A DNA stretch of 64,000 nucleotides from Cycloclasticus pugetii PS-1 (GTDB lineage: Bacteria > Pseudomonadota > Gammaproteobacteria > Methylococcales > Cycloclasticaceae): NCBI RefSeq assembly GCF_000384415.1, contig NZ_ARVU01000001.1, forward strand, positions 1,178,001 to 1,242,000, in the 5' to 3' direction. Below the pieces are notes generated by a model. The model saw only the letters and a program-made list of their open reading frames with translations, was not told the origin of the DNA and did not search any database. Positions 47,275-62,857 of the stretch are shown piece after piece; the stretch's first letter is position 1; each line of letters begins with the position of its first letter. The position numbers and the translations under genes were made by a program.

Positions 47275-47673
47275 ATGAGCACCAAAAATGAGCGATTTAG
47301 CGGCCCAGGCCCTGATCAAATCTACGATGATTTTTTAAAAAAAGGTGTTTTTTCCTTACCAAAATGTCAAGACTGCCAAGAATTTCATTTCTTCCCTCGA
47401 GTCGTTTGTCCTCATTGCGGTAGTTTTAACCTTGAATGGACAGCGGTCAGCGGAAAAGGTGAAGTTTATTCAACAACAACCGTTCGACGTAAGCCCGAAC
47501 GCGGCGGTAATTACAATGTATGTCACGTCACATTAGAAGAAGGCCCTCGCCTGATGAGCCGCGTTGAAGGTGTTGACCCATTAGATGTAAAAATTGGTGA
47601 TCAAGTCAGCGCCGTTATCAAAAATGATGAAGACAGTTCTTTTATTGTCTTCGTACCAACACAGGGAGTTTAA
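47275..47673 (+). CDS. DUF35 OB-fold/zinc-ribbon acyl-CoA-associated protein
   Basis: 132 residues. N-terminal zinc ribbon with C31-x2-C34 and C45-x2-C48 (CQDC, CPHC), then an OB fold (WTAVSGKGEVYSTTTVRR, LMSRVEGVD, IGDQVSAVI). DUF35 proteins are partners of thiolase-fold enzymes, including the steroid side-chain aldolase and archaeal acyltransferases. It is 3 bp before such a gene, so the two almost surely form a complex. GGAGTTAAT precedes the ATG. It is the first gene of the 47-51.7 kb operon. Confidence 0.9.
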   Translation: MSTKNERFSGPGPDQIYDDFLKKGVFSLPKCQDCQEFHFFPRVVCPHCGSFNLEWTAVSGKGEVYSTTTVRRKPERGGNYNVCHVTLEEGPRLMSRVEGVDPLDVKIGDQVSAVIKNDEDSSFIVFVPTQGV

Positions 47674-47676
47674 AAG

Positions 47677-48828
47677 ATGTCACATGAATTAAGAGGTTCA
47701 TCTGCGGTTGTTGGCGTTGGTTTGGCCGGTTGCGGCGAAGCTCATGGGAGAATGCCATTAGATATCCTAGCCGAGGCTACGCATAACGCGTTAGATGACG
47801 CTGGCTTAAAACTATCCGATGTAGACGGTATTTTCACCGGTTCGTCTTATCATTTTATGCCGGCATTGAGTACAGCAGAGTACTTAGGCATCAAACCGCG
47901 TTTTTCTGACAGCAGTATGGTGGGTGGTTCATCATTTGTAGCACATACCTTAAATGCTGCAATGGCCATTAAAACAGGCCAATGTGATGTTGCTTTAATT
48001 TGTTATGGCAGTAATCAGCGAACAGCCGGTGGAAAATTGGCCACCATGTCTGAACAACAAATTTATGAAGCACCTTATAAACCCCGTTATCCAATAAGCT
48101 CCTACGCACTCGCTGCGGCTCGTCATATGCATCAATACGGTACAACGCGTGAACAAATGGCTGATGTAGCTGTTGCAGCTCGTCAATGGGCGCAATTAAA
48201 CCCAGCCGCCTTCGCTCGCGATGAACTTACTCGCGACGATGTGCTTAATTCGCGCATGATTAGCGACCCTCTTTCCTTACTAGATTGCTGCTTAGTAACC
48301 GATGGTGGTGGTGCTGTTATTATGGTATCGAGTGAACGGGCAAAAGATTTTCCGAATAAACCCGTTTATGTATTAGGCACTGGTACCGCTCACTGGCATC
48401 GTCAAATCACTCAAATGCCGGACTTAACAACCACCGCTGCCGTAGACGCTGGAAAGCGTGCGTTTACAATGGCCGGTTTAACAAAAGACGATGTTGATGT
48501 TGTTGAGCTTTACGATGCATTTACTATTAACACTATCCTTTTCCTTGAAGACTTAGGTTTCTGCGCAAAAGGCGAAGGTGGCGCTTTTGTCGAAAATGGT
48601 AATATTGCACCCGGCGGTAGCCTACCAGTTAACACCAATGGTGGCGGTCTATCATGTGTCCACCCAGGTATGTACGGCATCTTCATTCTTATTGAAGCCA
48701 TTCAACAACTACGTGGTGGGTGTGGTGCACGACAAGTTGATAACCCAGAAGTTGCTCTGGTCAACGGCAATGGTGGAGTACTATCCAGTCAAGTAACAAC
48801 AATTCTAGGAACAGAGGCAGTTTTATAG
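47677..48828 (+). CDS. Thiolase-superfamily protein, probable CoA-thioester aldolase (Ltp2-like)
   Basis: 383 residues, thiolase fold (GLKLSDVDGIFTG, GGSSFVAHTLNAAMAI, VTDGGGAVIMVS, NTNGGGLSCVHPGMYG). The N-terminal thiolase Cys is absent: the equivalent loop reads SMVGGSS (80-86). The usual His/Asn of the HDAF/NEAF motif is Tyr: ELYDAFT with Y279, and a second Tyr, Y333, follows HPG. In the actinobacterial steroid side-chain aldolase Ltp2, two tyrosines at about these places are catalytic. It sits beside a DUF35 gene, the same partner. It probably breaks a beta-hydroxyacyl-CoA by retro-aldol reaction rather than thiolysis; substrate unknown. Confidence 0.78.
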   Translation: MSHELRGSSAVVGVGLAGCGEAHGRMPLDILAEATHNALDDAGLKLSDVDGIFTGSSYHFMPALSTAEYLGIKPRFSDSSMVGGSSFVAHTLNAAMAIKTGQCDVALICYGSNQRTAGGKLATMSEQQIYEAPYKPRYPISSYALAAARHMHQYGTTREQMADVAVAARQWAQLNPAAFARDELTRDDVLNSRMISDPLSLLDCCLVTDGGGAVIMVSSERAKDFPNKPVYVLGTGTAHWHRQITQMPDLTTTAAVDAGKRAFTMAGLTKDDVDVVELYDAFTINTILFLEDLGFCAKGEGGAFVENGNIAPGGSLPVNTNGGGLSCVHPGMYGIFILIEAIQQLRGGCGARQVDNPEVALVNGNGGVLSSQVTTILGTEAVL

Positions 48829-48829
48829 T

Positions 48830-50023
48830 ATGAGTAACCCTTCTTTAAACGGCATAAAAGTCGTTGATTTATCACGCGTTTTAGGTGGCCCCTTATGTAC
48901 TCAAATTTTAGGCGACCATGGCGCAGAAATTCTAAAAGTTGAACCTCCCGCAGGTGATGAAACACGCGGCTGGGGCCCTCCTTATCATGAACGTGGAAGT
49001 GCCTATTACGATGGGGTTAATCGTAATAAAAAAGGCATTGCCTTAGATATGCGTCAGCCTGAAGCACACCAAATTCTATTCCGCTTACTTGAAACAGCAG
49101 ATGTTCTTGTTGAAAATTTTAAGGTTGGCACACTCGAAAAATGGGGTATAGGCTTTACTGATGTATTACAAAAGAAATTTCCTCGCTTAATTCATTGCCG
49201 TGTAACTGGTTTTGGCAGTAATGGTCCCTACGCTGGTTTCCCTGGTTACGACGCCGTTGCTCAAGCCACGTCCGGCTTAATGAGCATTAACGGTGACGCT
49301 GATCGCCCACCTGTTCGAATTGGTGTGCCTATCGTTGACTTGACCACCGGCATGAATGCAGTTATTGCGATATTATTAGCCTTATATGAGCGAGAAACTT
49401 CTGGGCTAGGCCAATCAATAGAAGTCAGTTTATATGATACGGCGGTGAGCTTAATTCACCCGCATGCCGCCAACTGGTTTTTAGATGGTAAACCACAAAA
49501 ACGCCTCGGTAGCGCGCATCCAAACATCACACCTTATGACCTCTTCCCTACCGCTAATGGGATGTTGTTTCTAGGGATTGGTAATGATCGTCAGTTTGCT
49601 GGTTTATGTAAAGAATTAGGTCACCCTGAAATAGCACAAGATCCACGTTTTACGATTAATGCTAACCGCGCCAAAAATAAAGCTGAGTTGCGCGTTATTC
49701 TTGAAGATTTACTGGCTAACCGCGATGGCAAAGCGATGACCGCAGAATTAATGAGCAAAGGTATTCCTGCTGGCGCAGTACAAACGGTTGAAGATGCTTT
49801 GCAGCACCCGCAAACTAAAGCAAGAGAAATGGTCATAGAGTCGGGCGAGTACAGAGGCACAGGCATTCCTATAAAACTATCGCGAACTCCGGGGAAATTT
49901 AAATGCCGCCCTCCCCAATATGGTGAAAACAATACCGAAATATTAACGGATGCCGGCTACAGCCCAGAAGAAATAGAGCGCTTTAAAGAAATGCAAATAA
50001 CATTAGAAAAACCACGTAAATAA
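48830..50023 (+). CDS. CaiB/BaiF family type III CoA-transferase
   Basis: 397 residues. N-terminal GIKVVDLSRVLGGPLCTQILGDHGAEILKVEPP, DETRGWGPP, NRNKKGIALDM, and catalytic Asp D170 in PIVDLTTGMNA, followed by the GLGQSIEVSLYDTAVSL segment. These are complete for type III transferases, which move CoA between acids through a mixed anhydride. It starts 2 bp after the thiolase-fold gene, so is cotranscribed. The acid pair is unknown; a dicarboxylic or branched acid is plausible from the rest of the island. Confidence 0.92.
   Translation: MSNPSLNGIKVVDLSRVLGGPLCTQILGDHGAEILKVEPPAGDETRGWGPPYHERGSAYYDGVNRNKKGIALDMRQPEAHQILFRLLETADVLVENFKVGTLEKWGIGFTDVLQKKFPRLIHCRVTGFGSNGPYAGFPGYDAVAQATSGLMSINGDADRPPVRIGVPIVDLTTGMNAVIAILLALYERETSGLGQSIEVSLYDTAVSLIHPHAANWFLDGKPQKRLGSAHPNITPYDLFPTANGMLFLGIGNDRQFAGLCKELGHPEIAQDPRFTINANRAKNKAELRVILEDLLANRDGKAMTAELMSKGIPAGAVQTVEDALQHPQTKAREMVIESGEYRGTGIPIKLSRTPGKFKCRPPQYGENNTEILTDAGYSPEEIERFKEMQITLEKPRK
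49909..49916 (-). other. KOPS-like octamer GGGGAGGG
   Basis: Plus strand reads CCCTCCCC; the motif is on the minus strand, right of and pointing toward the dif-like site. Confidence 0.45.
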
Positions 50024-50050
50024 CTGATAAATAATTGTTTTTTATATAAA

Positions 50051-50512
50051 ATGAAACGCTTAGCTATTATTGCTCATGCACCCTCGCCGAATATAAAACG
50101 GATGATAAATGCCGTCTTAAAGGGTGCAAATAGTAATGAGGTAAACGGCGTCGAAGCTATTTTTATACCCGCGCTAGAAGCAAAGGCAGAAGATGTACTC
50201 AATGCAGATGCATTAATTTTAGCTACGCCAGAAAACTTAGGTTATATGAGTGGTGGCTTAAAGGATTTTTTTGATCGTAACTATTATCCGTGCATGGATA
50301 AAACAGAAGCCATGCCCTGTGCAGTCCTTATTCGTGCAGGCAATGATGGCACTGGCACAAAACGAGCGATTGAATCTATTTTAACCGGCCTACGATGGAA
50401 AATTGTTCAACAACCGCTTATTTGTCGTGGTGATTTTAAAGAAGAATTTATAGGCCAAGCCGAAGAGCTTGGCCTTTTTATGGCGGCTAGTTTAGATGCT
50501 GGAATTATCTAA
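50051..50512 (+). CDS. Flavodoxin-like/NAD(P)H-dependent FMN reductase family protein
   Basis: 153 residues. LAIIAHAPSPNIKRM at the N-terminus forms the FMN phosphate loop; ALILATPENLGYMSGGLKDFFDRNYYP is typical of the flavodoxin-fold reductases; a GTGTKRAIESILTGLRWK helix follows. It lies between the CoA-transferase and an acyl-CoA dehydrogenase in the same operon. It may carry electrons for a reductive step or be a quinone/FMN reductase. The specific role is not visible. Confidence 0.75.
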   Translation: MKRLAIIAHAPSPNIKRMINAVLKGANSNEVNGVEAIFIPALEAKAEDVLNADALILATPENLGYMSGGLKDFFDRNYYPCMDKTEAMPCAVLIRAGNDGTGTKRAIESILTGLRWKIVQQPLICRGDFKEEFIGQAEELGLFMAASLDAGII

Positions 50513-50551
50513 ACCAGATAACCCATTAACGACCTAGTAGGCAATCAAGTA

Positions 50552-51718
50552 ATGAATTTTTCCTATACTGAAGAACAGCAAGCCATTCAAAACTCTATTC
50601 AAAAGCTTTGCAAGCCTTTTGATGATGACTATTGGTTAAAGCGCGATCAGCAAGGTGGTTTTCCACATGACTTTTACCAAGCAATGGCAGACGGTGGCTG
50701 GATGGGAATTTGTATTCCTGAAGCTTATGGTGGTTCAGGTTTAGGTATTACCGAAGCTGCCATTATGGCGAGTACCATTGCTGAATCAGGAGCGGGTATG
50801 TCTGGCGCATCAGCCGTTCACATTAATATTTTTGGCTTAAACCCCGTTGTCGTGTTTGGTACCGAGGAGCAAAAAAATCGCATGCTACGACCCATGGCTG
50901 AAGGTCGCGAAAAGGCTTGTTTTGCTGTTACTGAACCGAACACCGGATTGAATACGACGCAGCTTAAAACCTTGGCTATCCGTAAAGACGACCGTTATAT
51001 TGTTAATGGGCAAAAAGTATGGATTTCCACTGCGCAAGTGGCTGATAAAATCTTATTATTAGCACGAACAACTCCTTTAGAAGACGTTAAAAAACCTACG
51101 CATGGTTTAAGCCTTTTTTATACCGACTTCGACCGTAATAAAATTAGCGTTCATGAAATTGAAAAAATGGGGCGCAAAGCGGTTGATTCAAATGAATTAT
51201 TTATTGATGGCCTAGAAATACCGCTTGAAGACCGTATTGGCGAAGAAGGAAAAGGCTTTGAATACATTCTTCATGGGATGAACCCTGAACGTATTTTAAT
51301 TGCAGGAGAAGCCATAGGCCTTGGAAGGGTTGCGCTAAAAAAAGCAACCGATTACGCTAAAGAACGTAATGTTTTTAATCGCCCCATTGGCCAAAACCAA
51401 GGCATACAACACCCATTAGCTGTGTGCTGGTCTGAGTTAGAAGCTGCTTGGCTGATGGCCATGTCGGCTGCTTGGCAATATGATAATAATCAACCCTGTG
51501 GTGCAGCGGCTAATGCAGCTAAATATTTGGCTGGAGAAGCAGGTTTTCATGCTTGTGAAACAGCAGTTATGACTCACGGTGGTTTTGGCTACGCAAAAGA
51601 ATATCACGTTGAACGCTATCTTCGTGAATCAATGATACCAAGAATTGCCCCTGTCAGTCCTCAGCTTGCCTTATGTTATATTGCAGAACGCGTATTAGGT
51701 TTAGCTAAATCGTATTAA
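50552..51718 (+). CDS. Acyl-CoA dehydrogenase (1)
   Basis: 388 residues. FSYTEEQQAIQNSIQKLCKPF, FAVTEPNTGLNTTQLKTLA (FAD-binding TEP), VNGQKVWISTAQVADKILLLART, GFEYILHGMNPERI, and the C-terminal MTHGGFGYAKEYHVERYLRES with the general-base region. All FAD and CoA contacts look intact. It oxidises an acyl-CoA to the 2-enoyl-CoA, with electrons passed to ETF. It closes the plus-strand operon of the island and converges on the citryl-CoA-lyase-like gene. Acyl specificity cannot be read from sequence. Confidence 0.92.
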   Translation: MNFSYTEEQQAIQNSIQKLCKPFDDDYWLKRDQQGGFPHDFYQAMADGGWMGICIPEAYGGSGLGITEAAIMASTIAESGAGMSGASAVHINIFGLNPVVVFGTEEQKNRMLRPMAEGREKACFAVTEPNTGLNTTQLKTLAIRKDDRYIVNGQKVWISTAQVADKILLLARTTPLEDVKKPTHGLSLFYTDFDRNKISVHEIEKMGRKAVDSNELFIDGLEIPLEDRIGEEGKGFEYILHGMNPERILIAGEAIGLGRVALKKATDYAKERNVFNRPIGQNQGIQHPLAVCWSELEAAWLMAMSAAWQYDNNQPCGAAANAAKYLAGEAGFHACETAVMTHGGFGYAKEYHVERYLRESMIPRIAPVSPQLALCYIAERVLGLAKSY

Positions 51719-51737
51719 CCATTATTAGGTAATCAAC

Positions 51738-52517
51738 CTAGTCATCTAATGTACGTTTGCCGGTATACGGCACTGTGTCTTCAATGTGCGAGTAAATAAA
51801 TGGTGCAATGGGGTGTTCCCTTTCTTCACTTATATGGCCTAGCAGACCAGCACTGCGAGTCACTACTGCTATACCACGCATCACGTCCCATGGCACACCA
51901 ATTTCTGATAACACGACCGCTATCGCACCGGTTGCATTAATGGTTAAGTGCTTGCCGTATACTTGATCAACCGTTTTAGATAGTGTAGTAACAATATCTA
52001 TATAATGCCCCTCTACACCTGCTTGACGAGCTATTTCAAAGAGTCGCGGCGTTCGCGGGTCATCTGGTTTGTGAAAGGGGTGACCAAACCCGGGGATTGC
52101 TTGGCGTGTTGCTTTGAAGCCGTTCACAATGCGTAAACAACTGGCCTCTAACCCTTCTTCTGCGGTGATAATATCTTGTAAATTCTTAGCCATGCCCTCC
52201 ATTGTGCCCACTAATCCACTACCAATTCCTTGTAAACCTGCCGATATAGCACCTTGAACCGATTCTGGGGCTGCCATTATTGTCAATCGAGTGGCTATCG
52301 CACTGGGCGTTAAGCCATGCTCCATTAAGGTGACCAAAACAGCATCGAAAATAGCTATTTCCCCCTTACTAGGCATGCGTTGCATCAAATGTAAAAAGAA
52401 CATTTCGGTAAAACTAACATGCCCCATCAACTCATTGACCAGATCTTTGTTTCGAACCAAAATCTGTTGCTCATTTGTGGTCGATATTTTCGTTTCAGGT
52501 GTTAAGTGCTTTGCCAT
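51738..52517 (-). CDS. Citryl-CoA lyase-like protein (citrate synthase superfamily)
   Basis: 259 residues, short against 370-430 for citrate synthase. Citrate-synthase-fold residues include H67 in LMEHGLTPS and H146 in GFGHPFHKPDDPRTPRL. The GHPxHKPxDPRT form belongs to the citryl-CoA lyase subfamily, which lacks the N-terminal domain. Such proteins cleave or make a tertiary-alcohol CoA ester (for example citryl-, methylcitryl- or citramalyl-like). It is the last gene of the minus operon after two MaoC halves. Substrate unknown. Confidence 0.78.
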   Translation of the reverse strand: MAKHLTPETKISTTNEQQILVRNKDLVNELMGHVSFTEMFFLHLMQRMPSKGEIAIFDAVLVTLMEHGLTPSAIATRLTIMAAPESVQGAISAGLQGIGSGLVGTMEGMAKNLQDIITAEEGLEASCLRIVNGFKATRQAIPGFGHPFHKPDDPRTPRLFEIARQAGVEGHYIDIVTTLSKTVDQVYGKHLTINATGAIAVVLSEIGVPWDVMRGIAVVTRSAGLLGHISEEREHPIAPFIYSHIEDTVPYTGKRTLDD

Positions 52518-52564
52518 ACATACCCCCTTTTTACCGCTAAATAGTTAATCGATTGCCTGTATCC

Positions 52565-52990
52565 TTATTTTGATATTTTGCTAATGACAAAGCCTTTTAA
52601 AACGGTTCTTTCACCACAGAAACATACCAGTTGGCATCGAGCATACACGCCATCTTCTCTTTTCTCTATCTGTTCAATATCACCTGATACGCACACAGTA
52701 TCACCGGGGTAAACGGGGCCTAAAAATGACACATTCAATTCACCACCATAAGCCCATCCTTGCCAGTTCCAAGCTGATAAAACTCGAGAAACAAATGCAA
52801 GTGTCAATAAACCATGAGCAATCGTCCGACCAAAAAAAGTGGTTTTCGCAAACTCAGGGTCAATATGTAAAGGATTGATATCGCCTGACGCGTCAGCATA
52901 AGCATCAATCATGCTTTGATCGACAGCTTGAGTCAATTCACCTATTGAAGCACCGACACAATACCCTTCATAAGATTTTAGTTCGCTCAT
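52565..52990 (-). CDS. MaoC-type (R)-enoyl-CoA hydratase, C-terminal half
   Basis: 141 residues of hotdog fold. The hydratase pair D37/H42 is in YADASGDINPLHIDPEFAKTT, followed by AHGLLTLAFVSRVL and GGELNVSFLGPVYPGDTV. It overlaps the upstream FAS1-like half by four bases. Such split halves act as a heteromer (as HadAB, ChsH1-ChsH2), with this one carrying catalysis. It hydrates the enoyl-CoA produced by the neighbouring dehydrogenases. Substrate is inferred from context only. Confidence 0.88.
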   Translation of the reverse strand: MSELKSYEGYCVGASIGELTQAVDQSMIDAYADASGDINPLHIDPEFAKTTFFGRTIAHGLLTLAFVSRVLSAWNWQGWAYGGELNVSFLGPVYPGDTVCVSGDIEQIEKREDGVYARCQLVCFCGERTVLKGFVISKISK

Positions 52991-53415
52991 GCCTCTTTCC
53001 CCCAGATCCGTGTAATCATCCCGCTGGTCACTAATTCTCCTTCTTGGTTGTGCGTTTGCGTTGTCATTTCAACGTAGTTACGCCCTTTCCTTTCATACAA
53101 CTTAAGAACTTTTGCCGAGGTATAGAGCGTTTCACCAATATAGGCAGGCCGATGAAATTTAAATTGTTGTTTTGCATGAATTCCGCCCGGTGGGCCTACG
53201 CGTGTACGTAGTGCTTCAATCACATATACCGCCGCCAACATGGGTGGTGCAATACGGCGCCCTTGTTGATCCTCTTCTCTTAGCTGAGGTGTTTCATCCT
53301 GTGTCGATTCAATGTATTTATCCACACGCTCCGCTGTCACCTCAAAAGATGGTACTGGGTCGAGAAAATCATCACCTTCAGACATACTGCTATACTTCAC
53401 ATAAGTGCTCATCAT
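52987..53415 (-). CDS. FAS1-like/MaoC-type dehydratase domain protein, N-terminal half
   Basis: 142 residues from the ATG at 53415 (a TTG one codon earlier is also in frame). EVTAERVDKYIESTQDETPQLRE, AAVYVIEALRTRVGPPGGIHAKQQFKFHRPAYIGETLYTSAKVLKLYERKGRNYVEMTT is the non-catalytic MaoC_dehydrat_N form. It is probably the substrate-tunnel subunit of a two-gene hydratase with the next gene. The two are translationally coupled by ATGA. No own catalytic Asp/His pair is evident. Confidence 0.82.
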   Translation of the reverse strand: MMSTYVKYSSMSEGDDFLDPVPSFEVTAERVDKYIESTQDETPQLREEDQQGRRIAPPMLAAVYVIEALRTRVGPPGGIHAKQQFKFHRPAYIGETLYTSAKVLKLYERKGRNYVEMTTQTHNQEGELVTSGMITRIWGKEA

Positions 53416-53426
53416 CAATTCTCTGT

Positions 53427-54443
53427 TTAATTTGTTTTGTATTGATAAACCAGGTCGCCACTACGTGTCACCTCACCTGTTCCAATTAAATAATTTAAAT
53501 GCGCCATCGCTTCACCCGTTGCCAACGATAAATTGAATAGACTTAATCGTTTGCCATAGAGCGTATGCAATACCTCCAACCCTGACCGAGCTTGTTGGCA
53601 AAATGCTAAAATTTGATCTAATGATTTACGATGCCCTTCTTTAAGCATTGTTGCACGTTCCTTAATGCCCTTAAAAATTCGACCGTGTGATGGCAATACC
53701 ACCGTATCGGCACCTAAGGTTGCCAAGGTGTCTAAACTGGATAAATAATCAGCCAGTGGATCTGCATCACTTTCATAGAAATTAACACTGACATTCGGCG
53801 AAATATTAGGCAATATTTGATCTCCGGAGACAAGAAGGTCTCGTTGCTTATTATGCAGACAAATATGCCCGGGGCTGTGGCCATTAAATTGTAATAAATG
53901 CCATTGCTCGCCATTAATCAACAGTGACTGCCCATCAACCAAACGCTGATATGAGGTAGGTGCCTCCGGAACACCGGTAACATAACCACCGACTTTATCT
54001 TGTAGCTGTTGAATGTCTTCTTGAGCTAAACCAAAACGCTCAAAATATTCCCTACGTCTAGCTTTTTGCTGCTTAGAATACTCTTGACACGCCATCTGGG
54101 TAGTCAAAAATTCAATTTGACTCATATGCACGGGCGCATTTGTTTTATGCGCTAACCATTGAGCCATGCCTACATGATCAGGGTGAAAATGAGTAATGAT
54201 TATTTTCTGAATCGGTTCATTATGACAAAAATCTACCAATACCTTATTCCATAGTAAAGTTGCCTCTTCACTATAAAACCCAGAATCAATAATCGTCCAG
54301 CCTTCCCCATCCCTCAACAACCAAAGGTTGATATGATCTAACGCATAGGGAATAGGCATTTTCAGTAAGAAAATGCCTTCTTCTACCTTCATTGGAAGAC
54401 CAAACTCCGGTTTGCTGGCTATCGGAAAGGTCAACATCCCCAT
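53427..54443 (-). CDS. MBL-fold metallo-hydrolase
   Basis: 338 residues. The metal-binding motif H85-x-H87-x-D89-H90 is in THFHPDHVGMAQWL, followed by HSPGHICLHN and a third histidine in LPSHGRIF. A C-terminal helical domain (about 265-338) is typical of the LACTB2/GloB-like subfamily. Substrate unknown; it could hydrolyse a thioester or lactone intermediate. It sits between acyl-CoA dehydrogenase 2 and the MaoC pair in one operon, with 11-15 bp gaps. Confidence 0.85.
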   Translation of the reverse strand: MGMLTFPIASKPEFGLPMKVEEGIFLLKMPIPYALDHINLWLLRDGEGWTIIDSGFYSEEATLLWNKVLVDFCHNEPIQKIIITHFHPDHVGMAQWLAHKTNAPVHMSQIEFLTTQMACQEYSKQQKARRREYFERFGLAQEDIQQLQDKVGGYVTGVPEAPTSYQRLVDGQSLLINGEQWHLLQFNGHSPGHICLHNKQRDLLVSGDQILPNISPNVSVNFYESDADPLADYLSSLDTLATLGADTVVLPSHGRIFKGIKERATMLKEGHRKSLDQILAFCQQARSGLEVLHTLYGKRLSLFNLSLATGEAMAHLNYLIGTGEVTRSGDLVYQYKTN

Positions 54444-54458
54444 ATATTAATACGTCCT

Positions 54459-55589
54459 TTAAGCCTGACTAAAACGCTGTAGATGATAATCACGGTCTCC
54501 AAACACTGCATTCATCATGGTTAAACGTTTTACATAATGTGCAACATCTAATTCATCGGTTACGCCGATACCACCGTGTAGTTGAGCGGCTTGCTCACCA
54601 ACAATTGATCGAGCGTCTCCCAAATAAACTTTAGCCGCAGAGACACTTTTTACACGTTCAGTCGTATCATCTTCTGACACCTTGATAGCGGCCAGATAGG
54701 ACAACGAACGCAGTTGTTCTTCGGTCATAAACATATCAACACAGCGGTGCTGAAGTACTTGAAAATTACCAATGGGCTGATCAAATTGTTTACGTGTTTT
54801 AAGGTATTCTACAGTTTTATCACGCAACTCAGTCACCACACCAACCCCTTCGGCACAAACTGCAGCTGTTGCAGCATCAATCACATATTCAATGTCGGAA
54901 AATGCACCATCTAAGTCACCAACAAGGGCGCTTTCATCTACCATGACATTATCAAATGTTAATTCAGAAGCACGTAGGCCATCGACTGTTTCATAATCAC
55001 GCGAGGTTAAGCCCTCTATATCTTTATCAACAATGAATAAAGAAATCCCTTCTGGCGTAAAATTATCACCACTGGTTCTAGCTGAAACGATTATTTTATC
55101 CGCCGTTTCTGCATTAAATACCACCGATTTTGCACCAGACAAACAGTATTGAGCTGCTTTTTTCTGTGCGCTAAATTCAACGTCAGTTAAGTTATAGCGT
55201 GATTGACGCTCGGCATAGGCAAATGCTAGTTTCATTTCCCCTGCAATAAGAGCAGGTAAAATGGCTTCTTTTTGTTCAGTATTTGCAGCTCGTTGAATCA
55301 ATAAACCACCCAATACAATAGAGGCTAAATACGGTTCAACAACAAGACCTTTACCAATCGCCTCCATTATTACAATCAAACCTGTTTGGCCAAAACCAAA
55401 ACCGCCAAACTCTTCATCAAATGGCACGCCCAATAAACCCATATCAGCAAAATTTTGCCAATTTTCTTCGCTGTAACCAATGCCTGTACGACTAAGTGAT
55501 TGGCGAGTCTCAAAGTCATATTCATTTTGCAAGAACTTATGTATCCCATCTTGCAACATGATCATTTCTTCAGTAAATTCTAAATTCAT
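54459..55589 (-). CDS. Acyl-CoA dehydrogenase (2), FadE28-like partner
   Basis: 376 residues. LEFTEEMIMLQDGIHKFLQNE at the N-terminus, GVPFDEEFGGFGFGQTGLIVIMEAIG, LAFAYAERQSRYNL in the place of the usual TEP loop, and a C-terminal LHGGIGVTDELDVAHYVKRL. The weaker FAD motif and paired arrangement with the next dehydrogenase (17 bp away) suggest one half of a heteromeric dehydrogenase like ChsE1-ChsE2 or Scd1AB. That is an inference from order, not from structure. Confidence 0.85.
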   Translation of the reverse strand: MNLEFTEEMIMLQDGIHKFLQNEYDFETRQSLSRTGIGYSEENWQNFADMGLLGVPFDEEFGGFGFGQTGLIVIMEAIGKGLVVEPYLASIVLGGLLIQRAANTEQKEAILPALIAGEMKLAFAYAERQSRYNLTDVEFSAQKKAAQYCLSGAKSVVFNAETADKIIVSARTSGDNFTPEGISLFIVDKDIEGLTSRDYETVDGLRASELTFDNVMVDESALVGDLDGAFSDIEYVIDAATAAVCAEGVGVVTELRDKTVEYLKTRKQFDQPIGNFQVLQHRCVDMFMTEEQLRSLSYLAAIKVSEDDTTERVKSVSAAKVYLGDARSIVGEQAAQLHGGIGVTDELDVAHYVKRLTMMNAVFGDRDYHLQRFSQA

Positions 55590-55606
55590 TTAACTACTCC
55601 TACTGC

Positions 55607-56806
55607 TTAAAGGCCCAACACGGCCTTCGCCATGATGTTCTTTTGAATTTCATTTGATCCACCATAAATGGATGATTTACGCCAATCTAAATAGTGAGGC
55701 GTCAGTACTGATGCTTCTTCCGGCCCAATAGGTTCTTCTTGCCAACCTTCGGTCATAGACTCTTTTACGTAAGGCAAGGCAAAATAACCAACTGCTTCCA
55801 TTAATAAAGCAGTGATTGCTTGTTGAACCTCTGTCCCTTTAACTTTTAAAAGCGAGGACTCAGCACCCGGCGCATCGCCCAATGCAAGTTTGGACAACAC
55901 GCGCATATTAGTCATTTCTAAGGCCATTAATTCAATTTCAACCGCTGATATTTTCGCTTTAAACATCGCATCTTCAATCAGTGGCTTACCATTATATTTT
56001 TCTTTTGAAGCGAGCTCTTTAAGACGTTTAATTTGTCTTTTTGAACGAGGTACTTGCGCAATATATGTTCGCTCATGCATCAATAATGATTTAGCAATTG
56101 TCCAGCCTTCACCTTCTTCGCCCACTAGGTTCTCTACCGGCACTTTCACGTTTTCTAGAAATACTTGGTTAACCACATGCATGCCATCAACCGTAATAAT
56201 CGGCGAGGTTGAAACACCTGGCGATTTCATATCAATTAATAAAAAGCTAATGCCTTTTTGTTTTCGATCTTCTTGGCTGGTCCTTACCAGTGTAAACATC
56301 ATGTCGGCGTAATGGCCGTGTGTTGTCCATGTTTTTGAGCCATTGACAATGTAATGGTCGCCCTGTCTTTCAGCTTTTGTTTGTAATGAAGCTAAATCTG
56401 AACCTGCATTAGGTTCCGAATAACCTTGGCACCACCACACATTACTATGAAGAATATCATTTAGATATTTATCGCGTTGTTCAGGCGTACCATATTTCAT
56501 CAACACCGGTGCTAACATCACTAAACCAAAAGCTACTGTCCTAAGGCAATTAGCTGCACCGCACTCTTCCTCGAAGATATATTTTTGCACCGGCGTCCAA
56601 CCTGGGCCACCATATTCAGCAGGCCAACCTGGAGCAACCCAACCATCTTTAGCCGCCAGAATTTTTTGCCAGCGTACGTAGTCTTCTTTTTTAAGGGCAA
56701 TACCTTTAGCTACTTTTTCTTGTATATCTTTAGGGTAATTTTCCTTAATAAATTCACGCACTTCCTGCTGGAAGGCTTTTTCTTCGGGGGTATAATTTAA
56801 ATCCAC
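55607..56806 (-). CDS. Acyl-CoA dehydrogenase (3), FadE29-like partner
   Basis: 399 residues. LNYTPEEKAFQQEVREFIKENYP, GWVAPGWPAEYGGPGW, WCQGYSEPNAGSDLASLQTKAERQG (full FAD-binding loop), VNGSKTWTTHGHYADMMFTLVRT and the C-terminal SSIYGGSNEIQKNIMAKAVLGL. This is the FadE29-type alpha subunit of a steroid-like heteromeric dehydrogenase. It heads the minus operon 55.6 to 51.7 kb, with a TetR-operator candidate 190 bp upstream at 56999. Confidence 0.9.
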   Translation of the reverse strand: MDLNYTPEEKAFQQEVREFIKENYPKDIQEKVAKGIALKKEDYVRWQKILAAKDGWVAPGWPAEYGGPGWTPVQKYIFEEECGAANCLRTVAFGLVMLAPVLMKYGTPEQRDKYLNDILHSNVWWCQGYSEPNAGSDLASLQTKAERQGDHYIVNGSKTWTTHGHYADMMFTLVRTSQEDRKQKGISFLLIDMKSPGVSTSPIITVDGMHVVNQVFLENVKVPVENLVGEEGEGWTIAKSLLMHERTYIAQVPRSKRQIKRLKELASKEKYNGKPLIEDAMFKAKISAVEIELMALEMTNMRVLSKLALGDAPGAESSLLKVKGTEVQQAITALLMEAVGYFALPYVKESMTEGWQEEPIGPEEASVLTPHYLDWRKSSIYGGSNEIQKNIMAKAVLGL

Positions 56807-57335: not shown

Positions 57336-58724
57336 ATGAATAAACAAGCTTCTCAAACCATCTCAACTAAACTGTCTCAATTTGTTCATGGTTTCAATCT
57401 CAATAACGTCCCCCTTGATGTTCAGCAATATGCCTTACAACTAATTCTAGATGGAACAGGTATCGCCTATGCTTCAACTCAATATGATTTCAGCAAAAAA
57501 GGGCTCGAAGCACTACGTCTCTTTAAGGAGCCCGGTGAGCATATTGTACTCGGAACAGGTGAAAAAATGCCCTACCGAGATGCTGCGCTGGCCAATGGCT
57601 TACTCATACATGGACTAGATTTTGATGATACTCATGTCGCAGGTGTAGTGCATATGACCTCAGCAGTTTGGCCCTGTGTTTTAGCAGTTGCTGAAAAATG
57701 TAATTCAACCGGTGAAGAGATGTTAGCCGCCTATATAGCAGGCATGGAAGTCGGGGCTCGACTTGGAATGGTTGCAAAAGGAGCCTTTCACCAAGTCGGT
57801 CATCACCCCACCGGAATCGCAGGAGCATTTGCCTGCTCCCTTGTCGCTGCCATGTTAATGAAGCTGCCCGTAGAACAGATGACGATGGCGCAAGGTATTG
57901 CCTTAAGTATGGCTTCAGGTAATTTTGAATTTTTGGAAGATGGCGCATGGACCAAGCGTTATCACCCAGGCTGGGCTGCCGTATCTGGCATTATGGCAGC
58001 GACCTTTGCTAAGGCCGGATATATTGGCCCGAGTTTGCCTTATGAAGGGCGTTTTGGTTTATACAACAGTCACTTGATTGGGCTGGAACCGGGTTGTGAT
58101 TATGATTTAGCAACCGCCGGCTTAAATTCTGTTTGGGAGGTTATGAATGTAGGCGTTAAGCCTTACCCTTCTTGCCATTTCACCCATGCTTGCATTGATG
58201 CTACTTTACACTTAACGAAAGAGCATCAATTAACGGTCGATCAAATTGAGAGCATTACAGCACTAGTTCCCGAGGAAGTTGTTAAAACAGTGTGCGAGCC
58301 GCTTGAGAACAAACAAGCACCAACCTGTGCATATGAAGCTCAATTTAGTGTGCCTTACTTAGTTGCTGTTGCTTTAGTCCGCCACGATTTTACTTTAGCA
58401 GATCTAGAACCTACACCCTTGGCAGACCCTGTCGTTGCAGCATTAGCAAAAAAAGTGATTTATCAGGTAGACCCAAACTCTGGTTTCCCAACCTATTACT
58501 CCGGTGAAGTACATATCACCTTAAAAGATGGGCGCGTCCTGAAACATCGCGAACATAAAAACCGAGGTTGTTTTGATAGGCCGTTAAGTGCTGACGATAT
58601 TGCTAAGAAATTTTTCCTTAACTGCCAATTGGCAATCTCAAAAAACAAAGCAACTGAGATTCAACAAGCTATTTTAAATTTGGCCTCATTTTCTAGCGTG
58701 ACAGAATTAACAAGTCATTTATAA
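57336..58724 (+). CDS. MmgE/PrpD family protein
   Basis: 462 residues. LILDGTGIAYASTQYDF, LANGLLIHGLDFDDTH, GHHPTGIAGAFACSLVAAMLM, GNFEFLEDGAWTKRYHPGWAAVSGIMAA, VKPYPSCHFTHACIDATLHL and QFSVPYLVAVALVR follow the MmgE/PrpD order. Members dehydrate 2-methylcitrate, decarboxylate aconitate or isomerise other tricarboxylates. It is alone on the plus strand between the dehydrogenase operon and the TetR gene, behind operator candidates 3 and the 27-bp palindrome. A role on a hydroxy-tricarboxylate or its CoA ester is a guess. Confidence 0.88.
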   Translation: MNKQASQTISTKLSQFVHGFNLNNVPLDVQQYALQLILDGTGIAYASTQYDFSKKGLEALRLFKEPGEHIVLGTGEKMPYRDAALANGLLIHGLDFDDTHVAGVVHMTSAVWPCVLAVAEKCNSTGEEMLAAYIAGMEVGARLGMVAKGAFHQVGHHPTGIAGAFACSLVAAMLMKLPVEQMTMAQGIALSMASGNFEFLEDGAWTKRYHPGWAAVSGIMAATFAKAGYIGPSLPYEGRFGLYNSHLIGLEPGCDYDLATAGLNSVWEVMNVGVKPYPSCHFTHACIDATLHLTKEHQLTVDQIESITALVPEEVVKTVCEPLENKQAPTCAYEAQFSVPYLVAVALVRHDFTLADLEPTPLADPVVAALAKKVIYQVDPNSGFPTYYSGEVHITLKDGRVLKHREHKNRGCFDRPLSADDIAKKFFLNCQLAISKNKATEIQQAILNLASFSSVTELTSHL

Positions 58725-58782
58725 CGACCACTAAATTTAAAGTGAATAACGTAACAGTTGGCTGACGTTATTCACTTTAATA

Positions 58783-59397
58783 CTATGACCCTTTAATACC
58801 ATCCCAGAAAAAACCAATTTGAATTTCTGCAATTTCATCAATTGTTTTACCACCAGGTGAATACCAAGCGAGTGTTCTATTAAGTGAGCCTAGTAAAGAC
58901 AGCCTTAATATTTTTAAATCGACATCGGCTTTAATGTCACCTTTTTCCTGTGCGGCAACTAGCCATTTTCGCCAAATATTTTCGTACCTATCTCGTCCTA
59001 CACGCCCTTCTTCTTGGACTGCAGTTGGCATTTGCCCATAGTTACGAATACTCGTTGAGGTATAGTCTCCTTTTTCAAGCAAAGCAGTTAAATGTCCCTT
59101 TGCAGCCTCCATCAAGACCTCTTGAGTCGACGCGTCTTCTGGCAACGCATTAACACGAGCAAGCACGGTATTAATTATATTTTCAAGACCAATCTTTAAA
59201 ATCTCAAGAACTAGCTGTTCTTTCGAATCAAAATGATAATAAAGACTACCCGCCTTCATATCTAATGACTTGGCTATATCTCTTAATGCTGTACCGTTAT
59301 AACCTTGCTTACTAAACAAAGCTGCTGAAGCATCTAAAATTCTCTCTCTGGTTTTCTTCACTTTATTTTTTGGAGCAGCTGCTGGTATTGTCGACAT
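58783..59397 (-). CDS. TetR-family repressor of the catabolic island
   Basis: 204 residues. N-terminal HTH (about 15-65): RERILDASAALFSKQGYNGTALRDIAKSLDMKAGSLYYHFDSKEQLVLEIL. The C-terminal ligand domain is helical, with IRNYGQMPTAVQEEGRVGRDRYENIWRKWL, resembling the KstR2/PsrA-like CoA-sensing group. It lies 43 bp downstream of ETF-QO. It is the only TetR gene in the region, and a CTAAC-N4-GTTAG palindrome stands before four transcription units, so it is the natural candidate to bind it. CoA-thioester inducer is inferred. Confidence 0.85.
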   Translation of the reverse strand: MSTIPAAAPKNKVKKTRERILDASAALFSKQGYNGTALRDIAKSLDMKAGSLYYHFDSKEQLVLEILKIGLENIINTVLARVNALPEDASTQEVLMEAAKGHLTALLEKGDYTSTSIRNYGQMPTAVQEEGRVGRDRYENIWRKWLVAAQEKGDIKADVDLKILRLSLLGSLNRTLAWYSPGGKTIDEIAEIQIGFFWDGIKGS

Positions 59398-59439: not shown

Positions 59440-61092
59440 CTACATATTGGCATAGTTCGGCCCACCGCCCCCTTCAGGCGTCACCCAGGTGATATTTTGT
59501 GTAGGGTCTTTAATATCACATGTCTTGCAATGCACACAGTTTTGGCCATTAATCTGAAACGTTGGCTGGCCCTCAGCATCTTCAATCACTTCATAAACCC
59601 CAGCTGGGCAATAACGTTGAGCTGGCTCATCATACAGCGGCAAATTATGTTTAATTGGAACAGAAGGATCTATTAATTTTAAATGGCAAGGCTGATCTTC
59701 TTCATGATTCGTGCTAGATAAAAAAACAGATGACAATTTATCAAACGTAAGCTTTCCATCAGGTTTTGGATAGTCTGGCGCCTCGCACTGTGAAGCTTGT
59801 TTTAAAGTTTCATGATCGGGTGTGGTGTTATGCCAAGTAAAAGGCATCTTCCCTGCAAAAATATTTTGGTCTAACCAAGCAAATGAGCCACCCAGTAACG
59901 TACCAAATTTATGTAACGCTGGGCCGAAATTACGGGTTTTATACAATTCATCAAATACCCAAGATGATTTGTATTTATCGTCCATTACGGTTAATGCCTT
60001 ATTTGCAATATCACCGGCTAACATCGACTCCATAATTGCTTCAGCAGCTAACATTCCGGTTTTCATGGCCGTATGATTGCCTTTAATTTTTGCACCATTT
60101 AGGAAACCAGCATCACAACCCACTAACAGCCCACCAGGGAAACTAAGCTTAGGAACTGACTGCATTCCTCCTTTGTTAACTGCACGTGCACCGTATGCGA
60201 TCCGTTTTCCACCTTCAAGGAACTGAGAAATTTTAGGGTTAAGCTTCCAACGTTGCATTTCATCAAACGGGCTCAAATGTGGGTTGTCATAATTTAATGC
60301 AACGATAAACCCAAGTGCGACTTGATTATTTTCCATATGGTACAAAAAGCCGCCGCCTTCAGTGTGGTTATCAAGCGGCCAGCCAGCCGTGTGCACGACA
60401 AGCCCTTCTTCGTGTTTTTCCGGCTCAATTGTCCAAATTTCTTTAATTCCTAAGCCATAATGCTGGGGGTCAACATTTTCACGCAGGTTAAAGGTTTCCA
60501 TTAACTGCTTACCAAGGTGACCGCGGCAGCCTTCAGCAAAAATCGTCTGTTTAGCCAACAATTCCATACCTGGCATGTAGCCATCTTTTTCTGAACCATC
60601 TTCAGCAACGCCCATGTCGCCGGTTAAAATACCCTTAACACTGCCATCATCATTATATAAAACCTCTGATGCCGTGAACCCAGGGAAAATTTCAACACCC
60701 ATCCCTTCTGCCTGCTCAGCCAACCAACGACACACATTAGCCATGCTAACAATATAATTACCTTCATTATGCATCGGTTTAGGAATTAAAAAGTTAGGGG
60801 TTTTGATACCTTTTTCTTGGCCAGTTAAATAATAAACATCATCTCCTTTGACCTTTGTTTTTAATGGTGCGCCTTTTTCTTTCCAATCAGGAAACAGCTC
60901 ATCCATCGCTGTGGGTTCAATCACCGCACCCGATAGAATATGTGCGCCAACTTCCGAGCCCTTTTCAATAACACAAACCATTAATTCTTGGTTTCTTTCT
61001 TGCGCTAACTGCATCAGTTTGCAGGCCGCTGATAAGCCAGCAGGCCCAGCACCAACGATCACTACATCAAACTCCATTGACTCACGTTCCAT
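59440..61092 (-). CDS. etfD: Electron-transfer flavoprotein-ubiquinone oxidoreductase
   Basis: 550 residues from the ATG at 61092, which has GGGGG five bases upstream; in-frame ATG codons also lie 15 bases before and 15 bases after. FAD motif VVIVGAGPAGLSAACKL, then GAHILSGAVIEP, LLVGCDAGFLNGAKIKGNHTAMKTG. The C-terminal 4Fe-4S Cys cluster is NCVHCKTCDIKDP, ending GGGGPNYANM. It oxidises reduced ETF and reduces ubiquinone at the inner membrane. It lies between the TetR gene and etfA, the same strand, so it collects electrons from the three acyl-CoA dehydrogenases. Confidence 0.96.
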   Translation of the reverse strand: MERESMEFDVVIVGAGPAGLSAACKLMQLAQERNQELMVCVIEKGSEVGAHILSGAVIEPTAMDELFPDWKEKGAPLKTKVKGDDVYYLTGQEKGIKTPNFLIPKPMHNEGNYIVSMANVCRWLAEQAEGMGVEIFPGFTASEVLYNDDGSVKGILTGDMGVAEDGSEKDGYMPGMELLAKQTIFAEGCRGHLGKQLMETFNLRENVDPQHYGLGIKEIWTIEPEKHEEGLVVHTAGWPLDNHTEGGGFLYHMENNQVALGFIVALNYDNPHLSPFDEMQRWKLNPKISQFLEGGKRIAYGARAVNKGGMQSVPKLSFPGGLLVGCDAGFLNGAKIKGNHTAMKTGMLAAEAIMESMLAGDIANKALTVMDDKYKSSWVFDELYKTRNFGPALHKFGTLLGGSFAWLDQNIFAGKMPFTWHNTTPDHETLKQASQCEAPDYPKPDGKLTFDKLSSVFLSSTNHEEDQPCHLKLIDPSVPIKHNLPLYDEPAQRYCPAGVYEVIEDAEGQPTFQINGQNCVHCKTCDIKDPTQNITWVTPEGGGGPNYANM

Positions 61093-61114
61093 ATTACCCC
61101 CTAACATTAATACG

Positions 61115-61154
61115 AAAAAAAGGTGCCAGCGCTTATCAGTAGCCCTGGCACCTT
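61115..61154 (-). terminator. Terminator of etfBA
   Basis: On the minus strand AAGGTGCCAG pairs with CTGGCACCTT around a 15-base loop, then seven T's. It lies just after etfA and before the ETF-QO gene, so ETF-QO must have its own promoter or use read-through. Confidence 0.85.
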
Positions 61155-61172
61155 CATTATTTTATAAAGTAC

Positions 61173-62111
61173 TTATAAGGCTTTTTCAAGCTCTTCAATC
61201 ACTTCAAATAAATCACCAACCAAACCATAGTCAGCCACTTCAAAAATGGGCGCATCCGCATCTTTGTTAACAGCAACGATAGTTCCAGCATCTTTAATAC
61301 CCGCTAGGTGTTGAATAGCGCCTGAGATACCGAAGGCCATGTAAAGTTCCGGTGCAATAATTTTACCCGTCTGACCAACTTGATGATCATTAGGAATAAA
61401 GCCCGCGTCAACGGCTGCTCTCGATGCACCAACACCCGCCCCTAACTTATCAGCCAAACTATAAATAACACTGAAGTTTTCTTCGCTACCAACACCACGT
61501 CCACCAGAAACAACTTTTGTAGCCGCTTGAAGATCAGGGCGATCGCCGCCGCCACTGGTGGTAAGGCCTACATAACGCGTGTGTGAAGGCAAGTTAGCCG
61601 CTACTTCGCGTGTTTCGATCACAGCAGAACCTTCTGTTGAGACCGCTGAATATGATGCCGTTCTAACCGTCCCAACCACTAATCCTTCTGGTGCTTCAAC
61701 CGTTACAACCGCATTCCCAGCGTAAACTGGGCGATCAAAAACAGTTGCACTTTCAACACGCATAATATCGCTGATTTGCGGCACACCCAAGTGTGCAGCA
61801 ACGCGCGGCATTAAATCTTTACCAAATGTTGTGCTTGGCGCGAACACGTGACTGTACTCTGATGCTAACACCTCAATTTGCGGAGCTAGCAATGCTGCCA
61901 CAGCGTGCTCATTAACCTCGTTTTGAACCAAAATGACTGTTGCAACACCCGTTAGCTTAGCCGCTTGTTCTGCCACCGATTGTCCATCGGAAGCTAACAC
62001 AGCCACATCGACAGCCTCTAAACCAAGTTCACTTGCACAAGCTACAGCACGTGCTGTAGAACCATTTAATTCACTACCATTATGTTCTGCAATAACCAGT
62101 ACTTTGCTCAT
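61173..62111 (-). CDS. etfA: Electron transfer flavoprotein alpha subunit
   Basis: 312 residues. SKVLVIAEHNGSELNGSTARAVACASEL, GKDLMPRVAAHLGVPQISDI, and the FAD-binding GGRGVGSEENFSVIYSLADKLGAGVGASRAAVDAGFIPNDHQVGQTGKIIAPELYMAFGISGAIQHLAGIKDAGTIVAVNKD. This is the complete EtfA pattern. It accepts electrons from acyl-CoA dehydrogenases. Its ATG overlaps the etfB stop (TAATG). Operator candidate 4 stands upstream of the etfBA unit. Confidence 0.97.
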   Translation of the reverse strand: MSKVLVIAEHNGSELNGSTARAVACASELGLEAVDVAVLASDGQSVAEQAAKLTGVATVILVQNEVNEHAVAALLAPQIEVLASEYSHVFAPSTTFGKDLMPRVAAHLGVPQISDIMRVESATVFDRPVYAGNAVVTVEAPEGLVVGTVRTASYSAVSTEGSAVIETREVAANLPSHTRYVGLTTSGGGDRPDLQAATKVVSGGRGVGSEENFSVIYSLADKLGAGVGASRAAVDAGFIPNDHQVGQTGKIIAPELYMAFGISGAIQHLAGIKDAGTIVAVNKDADAPIFEVADYGLVGDLFEVIEELEKAL

Positions 62112-62857
62112 TAGACCAACCCTTTTTCTTTTAATACGCTAACCAGTTCATCAACAGACTCTACTTTAATACCTGCTTGGCGTTTTGCCGGTGCAGATGT
62201 TTTTAAAACCTTGACTGGTGCTGCTGCTTCAACATTTAGTTCCGCAACGGTTACTGTTTCAATCGGTTTACGCTTTGCTTTCATAATATCGGGAAGTTTG
62301 ACATAGCGCGGCTCGTTTAATCGTAAATCCACACTAATAACAGCTGGCAAATCAACTGACAACGTTTCAAGCCCAGCATCAATTTCACGAGTCACTTGTG
62401 CTGTGTCACCCTCAATTTTTACTTCTGATGCGAATGTTGCTTGTGGCCAATGTGATAACGCACCCAGCATTTGAGCTGTTTGATTATTATCGTCATCAAT
62501 CGCTTGTTTACCTAACAACACAATCTTAGGCTGCTCTTTATCAGCCAGTGCTTTTAAAATACGCGCCCCTGTTAACGGTTGAATTTCATCATCTGTTTCA
62601 ACATGAATTGCACGGTCTGCACCCATCGCTAGCGCAGTTCTTAATTGCTCCTGACAAACTTTAGGGCCTATCGTTACAGCGATCACTTCTTCTGCTGTTC
62701 CTGATTCTTTGAGACGTAACGCCTCTTCAACAGCAATTTCATCAAACGGATTCATGCTCATTTTAACGCCATCAGTGGCAACGCCTGAACCATCGGCCTT
62801 AACCTGTATCCGAACGTTGTAATCAACAACTCGTTTAACACCCACTAAAACTTTCAT
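62111..62857 (-). CDS. etfB: Electron transfer flavoprotein beta subunit
   Basis: 248 residues. [72 protein letters not shown], and the C-terminal ETF beta signature [26 protein letters not shown]. It carries AMP and partners EtfA. AAGGT precedes the ATG. It starts the etfBA operon. Confidence 0.97.

Follow-up and report, generated by a model that had tools for sequence, protein, structure and literature searches.

What reaction does THL1 catalyze, a thiolase-fold protein encoded beside a DUF35 protein in Cycloclasticus pugetii PS-1, and does it belong to one catabolic module with the acyl-CoA dehydrogenase pair and the split MaoC hydratase of the neighboring convergent operon? The window, as we call the whole stretch of 64,000 nucleotides analyzed here, covers positions 1178001-1242000 of a genome of 2.38 Mb in one contig (G+C content, about 38 to 44%), and an initial annotation had likened the cluster at 47275-56806 to the dehydrogenase, hydratase, and aldolase set of steroid side-chain degradation. 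Our results indicate that THL1, judged by its residues, is not an ordinary thiolase, and they predict that it is a retro-aldolase; with a probability of about one-half, the cluster is a coenzyme A (CoA)-ester catabolic module ending in a retro-aldol step that cleaves a nonsteroid acyl-CoA, either branched or alicyclic.

The active site of THL1

Databases treat THL1 as a thiolase: it scores 665 bits against NF004811, a model named acetyl-CoA acetyltransferase (cut-off, 421), and the plasmid records listed name proteins of its type thiolase or acetyl-CoA acetyltransferase. We rejected the identity as an ordinary thiolase on the basis of an alignment with the best 80 of at least 595 confirmed related stretches from one scan of a genome collection, a set that also served for the neighborhood counts below; the nucleophilic Cys of thiolase 7yvy aligns to Gly84, and the His of its HDAF motif aligns to Tyr279, in THL1 and in all 80 relatives. 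Gly84, Tyr279, Asp280, Ala281, and Phe282 (the YDAF motif), His329, and Pro330 are each invariant (80/80). Cys205 is invariant as well and is also present in Ltp2; Cys327 is kept in 69 of the 80 relatives and replaced in 11. The expectation of the initial annotation that the thiolase-fold protein would stand apart from true thiolases was borne out by the absence of both the thiolase Cys and the HDAF His.

Sal and Ltp2 likewise lack the nucleophilic Cys and have the Tyr, and the Tyr base of these two aldolases is the precedent for the mechanism considered here; PMC12329534 assigns Tyr302 and Cys304 of a YDCY motif to Sal, which requires the catalytic Cys of its motif, and Tyr294 of a YDHF motif together with Tyr344 to Ltp2. 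Sal-Shy, the bile-acid C5 side-chain aldolase of Comamonas testosteroni (9myr), shares the thiolase fold, the DUF35 component, the Gly, and the Tyr base with the window proteins, and Sal is 35% identical to THL1, but it has YDCY, a catalytic Cys, and Gln352, whereas THL1 has YDAF, conserved in all 80 relatives, and His329. Ltp2-ChsH2, the steroid C3 side-chain aldolase (6ok1), shares the fold, the DUF35 component, the Tyr base, and the lack of the nucleophilic Cys and differs in YDHF and in the use of Tyr344 as the acid; His329 of THL1 aligns with a Tyr of Ltp2. Closer to THL1 is 4u4e, an uncharacterized thiolase-like protein of Sphaerobacter thermophilus (51 to 54% identity), which keeps the Tyr and the His, has no Cys, and differs in a YDSF motif and a Tyr at the position of Cys327.

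A search of solved structures with the THL1 sequence placed 4u4e nearest, followed by Sal (204 bits), Ltp2 (183 bits), and thiolase 7yvy (145 bits). An AlphaFold2 model of THL1 reached a pLDDT of 91 with 48 alignment rows (46 in a 10-sequence job) and by Z score was nearest to Sal (54.7), 4u4e (54.1), TbSLP (53.1), and Ltp2 (52.7), with classical thiolases at about 37, in structure tables whose listing does not exclude families outside it. Because the close Z values are ties, the fold alone leaves the matter undecided, and the residues decide. In a quick tree the YDAF sequences stood apart from Sal and Ltp2, whose places are unsure because of their long branches, and the window THL1 stood beside its counterpart in Polaromonas sp. 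JS666 (SH-aLRT, 90).

The DUF35 gene is separate and adjoins THL1 with no fusion to a MaoC domain, in contrast to Shy, a MaoC-DUF35 fusion. The Cys3His1 zinc site of the Sal-type DUF35 is absent, and the protein instead has two CxxC pairs (Cys31, Cys34, Cys45, and Cys48), each Cys being kept in 73 or 74 of 87 relatives; its best solved relatives are the DUF35 domains of Shy (9myr_B, 48 bits) and ChsH2 (6ok1_B, 46 bits). The likeness to Ltp2-DUF35 proposed at the outset therefore holds in that Sal-Shy and Ltp2-ChsH2 are the nearest structures of known function, and it stops at the motif, which is YDAF and not YDHF. An adjoining DUF35 gene, a Tyr base, and the lack of a nucleophilic Cys, which mark DUF35-partnered retro-aldolases in the broad sense, were all found for THL1, and the prediction of a retro-aldolase is consistent with them. 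In the most economical reading, that of a desaturating, hydrating, and retro-aldol set for a nonsteroid acyl-CoA, its Gly/YDAF/His site is a new type of aldolase active site. No description of THL1 was found in open-licence PMC papers with the terms used.

Hydratase pair, dehydrogenases, and operon structure

The Asp37/His42 dyad of the MaoC subunit is conserved in all 11 relatives that are at least 40% identical, and its partner keeps the Asp and has no His at the catalytic place in 9 of 9 relatives. One dyad-bearing subunit with a partner lacking the catalytic His is the pattern of ChsH1-ChsH2, whose arrangement, as given in PMC11321319, resembles the window pair. This part of the comparison with ChsH1-ChsH2 stands; by similarity, generic R-hydratases are the best solved matches of both proteins, and 4W78 (ChsH1/ChsH2) was not among their phmmer matches up to an E value of 1.

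The adjoining dehydrogenases show the ChsE1-ChsE2-type pattern of a catalytic-type Glu in one subunit. This residue, Glu245 of the PimC-like protein, is kept by all 70 relatives with at least 30% identity and is presumably the catalytic base in such enzymes. In the PimD-like protein the corresponding position, 240, placed through the alignment with 4o5m, has no Glu in any of 29 relatives (Ala in 22, Gly in 5, Thr in 1, and Val in 1), and the position beside it is Glu in 2 of the 29. The solved structures nearest to the PimC-like protein are 4x28_A and Tcur3483 (177 and 171 bits; next, 117), which we take to be subunits of steroid heteromeric dehydrogenases, and those nearest to the PimD-like protein are isovaleryl-CoA dehydrogenase (124 bits), Tcur3481 (108 bits), and 4x28_D (81 bits). 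The supposed kinship to ChsE1-ChsE2 was thus found for the PimC-like subunit only, and the best NCBIfam models of the two proteins are PimC and PimD. Since both scores lie under the curated cut-offs (Table 1), we use these names for a family resemblance only.

The genes form two convergent runs, DUF35, THL1, CoA-transferase, FMN_red-like protein, and a single acyl-CoA dehydrogenase (ACAD_s) on the plus strand, with gaps of 1 to 39 bases, and PimC-like, PimD-like, MBL-fold hydrolase, MaoC-like protein without His, MaoC, and a citryl-CoA-lyase-like protein (CCL) on the minus strand, where neighbors overlap by up to 4 bases or lie at most 47 bases apart. For six further genus members (G019, G027, G035, G043, G006, and G047), one fetched stretch likewise contains both the THL1 operon and MaoC, and the tight convergent runs together with this recurrence argue against a chance gene order. 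Promoter and terminator scans gave counts near those by chance (34 versus 29.9 and 15 versus 12.2, respectively). The best model of the CoA-transferase is succinate-glutarate CoA-transferase, under its cut-off, and the electron-transfer flavoprotein (ETF) and ETF-ubiquinone oxidoreductase (ETF-QO) encoded nearby are the likely electron outlet for the dehydrogenases.

A related plasmid island in Polaromonas

Among the matches listed, the closest THL1 outside the order of the window organism is encoded on plasmid 2 of Polaromonas sp. JS666 (NC_007950.1). Between about 2 and 64 kb of this plasmid, 10 proteins of a library made from window-region proteins and relatives had counterparts at least 50% identical across 70% of the protein length; the island has counterparts of THL1 (73%), ACAD_s (71%), ACAD95 (70%), SDR113 (66%), ETF-QO (57%), and the CoA-transferase (54%), with the MBL counterpart at 34%. 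No library match at this identity was found at 200 to 286 kb of the same plasmid, which is a weak control because it is transfer and replication DNA, and 20 loci from the class had at most four such matches each. On the island the PimD-like, PimC-like, DUF35, and THL1 genes form one run with overlapping ends, although this dehydrogenase pair is only 38% and 28% identical to that of the window.

Unlike the window, the island also encodes a P450, a ferredoxin, a PQQ alcohol dehydrogenase, carboxylases, and an ABC transporter; the P450 with ferredoxin and the alcohol and aldehyde dehydrogenases near the THL1 run suggest a neighborhood of hydrocarbon-to-acid-to-CoA chemistry. A route started by a P450 was considered for the window genome, in which PF00067 has no match, and the upstream enzyme of the window organism would therefore differ from that of JS666.

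Comparison within the genus and beyond

In G019, G027, and G035, a block of five genes lies between CCL and MaoC, encoding a ligase-type protein (PaaK-like in G019, the sole one tested), a carboxyltransferase (split over two frames in G035), a biotin carboxylase, a second thiolase-fold protein (THL2), and a second DUF35 protein (DUF35-2). G043 has the block and no CCL, only THL2 and DUF35-2 remain in G053, and the entire block is absent from the window genome, where the extra carboxyltransferase has only paralogs of 54% and 44% identity. Stepwise loss of the block would be the simplest account, and the operon seen in the window may be a section of what was once a longer one. The motif of THL2 is YDCF, of the Sal/SLP type. 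In G006 and G047, which have no block, MBL, or CCL, the genes for THL1, CoA-transferase, ACAD_s, the MaoC pair, PimD, PimC, and PrpD stand together.

CCL itself is limited to some members of the genus, and no copy was seen in the loci fetched for G006, G047, G043, and G050. At its place G043 has a glutathione S-transferase gene (L015:11509-12183; L numbers denote fetched loci), and G050 has a 224-amino-acid gene (L026:4337-5011) likened to it by its equal length alone. PrpD adjoins the PimC-like gene or lies one gene away in G006, G047, and G053. An old-yellow-enzyme-type gene lies beside DUF35 at L012:5910-7148 (NamA-like, the sole one tested), L014:6188-7399, L015:5227-6342, and L022:11785-12951, and none is found there in the window. 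The CoA-transferase gene linked to THL1 is followed by an HMG-CoA-lyase-like paralog in G056 (L019:8776-9696) and G065 (L027:814-1710), 66 to 67% identical to the other copy.

The SDR113 and ACAD117 genes, which adjoin THL1 in G006, G031, and G047, lie about 49 to 54 kb past the window end in the window genome. A second dehydrogenase pair (344 and 382 amino acids) is located at L011:10825-13004, i.e., extended window positions 114825-117004, with homologs near THL1 in G031; Tcur3481 is nearest to its 344-amino-acid subunit (63.5 bits).

Across 18 genomes of the genus, THL1 and PimC were both present in 12, both absent in 4, and found singly in 2 (Fisher P = 0.008). A THL1 ortholog was found in 12 of 14 genus genomes with matches to the ring-hydroxylating-oxygenase family PF00848 and in 1 of 4 without (Fisher P = 0.044), with partial genes in G050 and G062 scored as present and a 44% match in G013 scored as absent; the tie to these oxygenases is weak because G031 is an exception and several genomes are incomplete. 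The window organism itself has 19 PF00848 matches and several extradiol-dioxygenase-like proteins of about 300 to 335 amino acids, four groups of which adjoin ring-hydroxylating-oxygenase genes.

In samples of 121 genomes from the order and 274 from the class, both counting the window genome, matches of the THL1 type occur in 15 genomes (E value, 1e-60 or better) and 7 genomes (1e-95 or better), respectively. The best 80 relatives come from Pseudomonadota, Bacillota, and Actinomycetota, with one labeled Hymenobacter. Neighbors around the 80 loci were counted by tblastn, which replaced a frame-based count that recovered THL1 itself in only 55 of the 80, owing to antisense frames in high-GC DNA. 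DUF35 is present in 77 loci; of the remaining three, L108 matched the paralog DUF35-2, L119 starts at a contig edge, and none was found in L163. PimC-like and PimD-like genes were found at any identity in 30 and 26 of the 80 loci, respectively, and as an adjoining pair in 25 (33 to 57% and 26 to 45% identity), 8 of these pairs being on the same strand within 2.5 kb. Of the 54 loci that are 20 kb or longer, 36 have a MaoC match. SDR113 and ACAD117 were found at 50% identity or more in 31 and 14 of the 80 loci, respectively. Neither reached this level in any of the 20 class loci (9 of these had been chosen by THL1), which argues against a universal link.

Proposed pathway and alternatives

By analogy, the dehydrogenase pair, the MaoC pair, and THL1/DUF35 may form a desaturate-hydrate-cleave set, and the best-fitting substrate would be an acyl-CoA that is alicyclic or has isoprenoid-type branching. 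The CoA-transferase would load an acid derived from a hydrocarbon; the PimC/PimD-like heteromer would introduce an α,β double bond and pass electrons to the adjoining ETF/ETF-QO; and the MaoC pair would hydrate the product to a β-hydroxyacyl-CoA. This product would probably be a tertiary alcohol, with its hydroxyl on a branching or ring carbon, that could not be oxidized to a ketoacyl-CoA. THL1/DUF35 would then cleave it to a ketone or aldehyde and a short acyl-CoA, with Tyr279 as the base and His329 as the likely acid. An FMO-like protein of 499 amino acids at genome position 1032223 was considered for a Baeyer-Villiger step after a ketone product.

A retro-aldol step of this sort is known mainly from steroid breakdown. 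A comparable case is IpfD with the DUF35 protein IpfE, which acts after a dioxygenase and not after a hydratase as in the window module, a likeness drawn from description and not from sequence. In this nonsteroid case, according to PMC9195938, the thiolase-type IpfD/IpfE frees propionyl-CoA from ibuprofen by retro-aldol cleavage. As for terpenes, the main text of a study of limonene in Castellaniella (PMC4109377) does not contain the word thiolase.

Several observations weigh against this module. THL1 and all 80 relatives keep His329-Pro330 of the thiolase GHP motif, so that one thiolase residue is retained; the true thiolase 6esq, of the DUF35 type, reaches a Z score of 52.1 against 54.7 for Sal, giving no clean separation by fold; the acid role of His329 is assigned solely from aligned sequences, and Glu245 is placed at the catalytic site by alignment together with what is known of such enzymes; and SDR113 could oxidize the β-hydroxyl, which would suit a thiolase route. 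The adjoining PimC/PimD-like pair is missing from 55 of the 80 THL1 loci. The operon running from PimC to THL2 is about 86 kb from THL1 in G056 and on a different contig in G062, and in both genomes the dehydrogenase/MaoC operon bears its own aldolase, THL2 (YDCF). As this second aldolase occurs in several relatives and is missing from the window genome, the reading as one module is weakened, and either THL1 or THL2 may serve the PimC/PimD-like pair. A single module draws support from the overlapping JS666 run and loses some to THL2.

These facts leave room for an unlikely but serious alternative in which the two runs are unrelated neighbors, the minus-strand operon being what is left of a longer one for a dicarboxylate or a branched acid after loss of the ligase, the carboxylase, and THL2, and the plus-strand operon acting on another substrate. 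The five extra genes of G019, G027, and G035, the THL2/DUF35-2 remainder in G053, the low identity of the carboxyltransferase paralogs in the window genome, and the separated half-modules of G056 and G062 all agree with it, yet G006 and G047 lack THL2 and still have both operons side by side, and in JS666 a dehydrogenase pair and THL1 share one overlapping run. We regard as improbable a branched β-oxidation of the peroxisomal kind, in which MaoC and an SDR would yield a 2-methyl-3-oxoacyl-CoA and THL1 would be an SCPx-type thiolase with an unusual nucleophile. The frequency of SDR113 in THL1 loci, the presence of SCP2-thiolases in the fold group of THL1, and its GHP His are in keeping with such a thiolase, but the nucleophilic Cys is absent and the HDAF His is Tyr throughout the 80 relatives, and, of the other Cys residues, Cys327 is replaced in some relatives and Cys205 is shared with Ltp2.

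A true steroid or bile-acid side-chain module, with the rings left to other organisms or to ring genes elsewhere, is highly improbable. THL1/DUF35 is kin to Sal and Ltp2, and the PimC-like protein is kin to 4x28_A and Tcur3483; the motif of THL1 is nonetheless unlike those of both steroid aldolases, the MaoC proteins match generic hydratases best, and the 9-hydroxylase KshA (PF19298) has no match genome-wide, further steroid-ring genes not having been searched for. On the KshA result we rejected a steroid pathway in the window genome. The observation that no steroid ring-cleavage gene is visible was upheld within this search, none of the 13 genome matches to the extradiol-type family PF00903 lying inside the window, whereas the removal of an α-methyl C3 side chain as propionyl-CoA found no support. 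For the Comamonas steroid set, genetic proof is reported in PMC12502768.

Returning to the retro-aldol module, we tentatively suggest, at somewhat less than even odds, that THL1/DUF35 represents a third, widespread class of thiolase-fold retro-aldolases outside steroid catabolism that cleaves β-branched or alicyclic acyl-CoAs without carboxylation or oxygen. If THL1 is a retro-aldolase, the names thiolase and acetyl-CoA acetyltransferase given to proteins of its type in the plasmid records listed, and the pathways derived from these names, would be wrong, and two small genes would allow a direct test of a carbon-carbon lyase that acts on branched and alicyclic acids in bacteria, oil degraders among them. 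If the class exists, it would supply the missing carbon-carbon lyase for the breakdown of isoprenoids, cycloalkyl-acetates, and naphthenic acids in many Proteobacteria, including on catabolic plasmids.

Gene list and further observations

The genes named by the initial annotation were recovered as open frames with Pfam or NCBIfam matches to the families proposed (Table 1); these runs covered the window genes from position 42291 onward. MmgE/PrpD lies outside 47275-56806, and two genes within this span had gone unmentioned, those for the FMN_red-like protein and ACAD_s.

Table 1. Genes of the THL1 cluster and its surroundings (window positions)
Feature	Position	Strand	Basis and remarks
DUF35 protein (zf-ChsH2 + OB_ChsH2_C)	47275..47673	+	Pfam; Zn ribbon and OB fold, partner of THL1
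THL1, thiolase fold, predicted retro-aldolase	47677..48828	+	NF004811; Gly84, Y279-D-A-F, His329
CoA-transferase family III	48830..50023	+	PF02515; NF052585, 351 bits (cut-off, 750)
FMN_red-like protein, 153 amino acids	50051..50512	+	PF03358, 28.4 bits (cut-off, 24)
ACAD_s, third acyl-CoA dehydrogenase, single, ending the plus-strand run	50552..51718	+	Pfam domains
CCL, citryl-CoA-lyase-like (citrate synthase C-terminal domain)	51738..52517	-	NF004868, 306 bits (cut-off, 193)
MaoC hydratase subunit, Asp37/His42 dyad	52565..52990	-	PF01575
FAS1_DH/MaoC-like partner hot-dog subunit, without catalytic His	52987..53418	-	PF13452
MBL-fold hydrolase	53427..54443	-	PF00753
PimD-like acyl-CoA dehydrogenase subunit	54459..55589	-	TIGR03203, 394 bits (cut-off, 653)
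PimC-like acyl-CoA dehydrogenase subunit, Glu245 (LMHER)	55607..56806	-	TIGR03204, 453 bits (cut-off, 624)
MmgE/PrpD family protein, divergent from the PimC-like gene	57336..58724	+	PF03972, PF19305
TetR-type regulator, cluster edge	58783..59397	-	PF00440
ETF-ubiquinone oxidoreductase and ETF alpha/beta	59440..62857	-	PF05187, PF21162, PF00766, PF01012

A perfect 16-base inverted repeat with a 12-base loop (58737-58780) lies between the convergent PrpD and TetR genes and is perhaps a two-way terminator. Beyond the window, extended positions 81768-106877 (L009-L011) hold an AtuA-family gene (PF07287, 474 bits) among genes that resemble those of carboxylases, hydratases, and dehydrogenases; a putative leucine-type set, named mostly by order and length, comes next in this large acyl-CoA catabolic region. 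At the other end of the window, a cobalamin riboswitch (2703-2909; 101.7 bits) lies upstream from an open frame of 607 amino acids (3021-4844).

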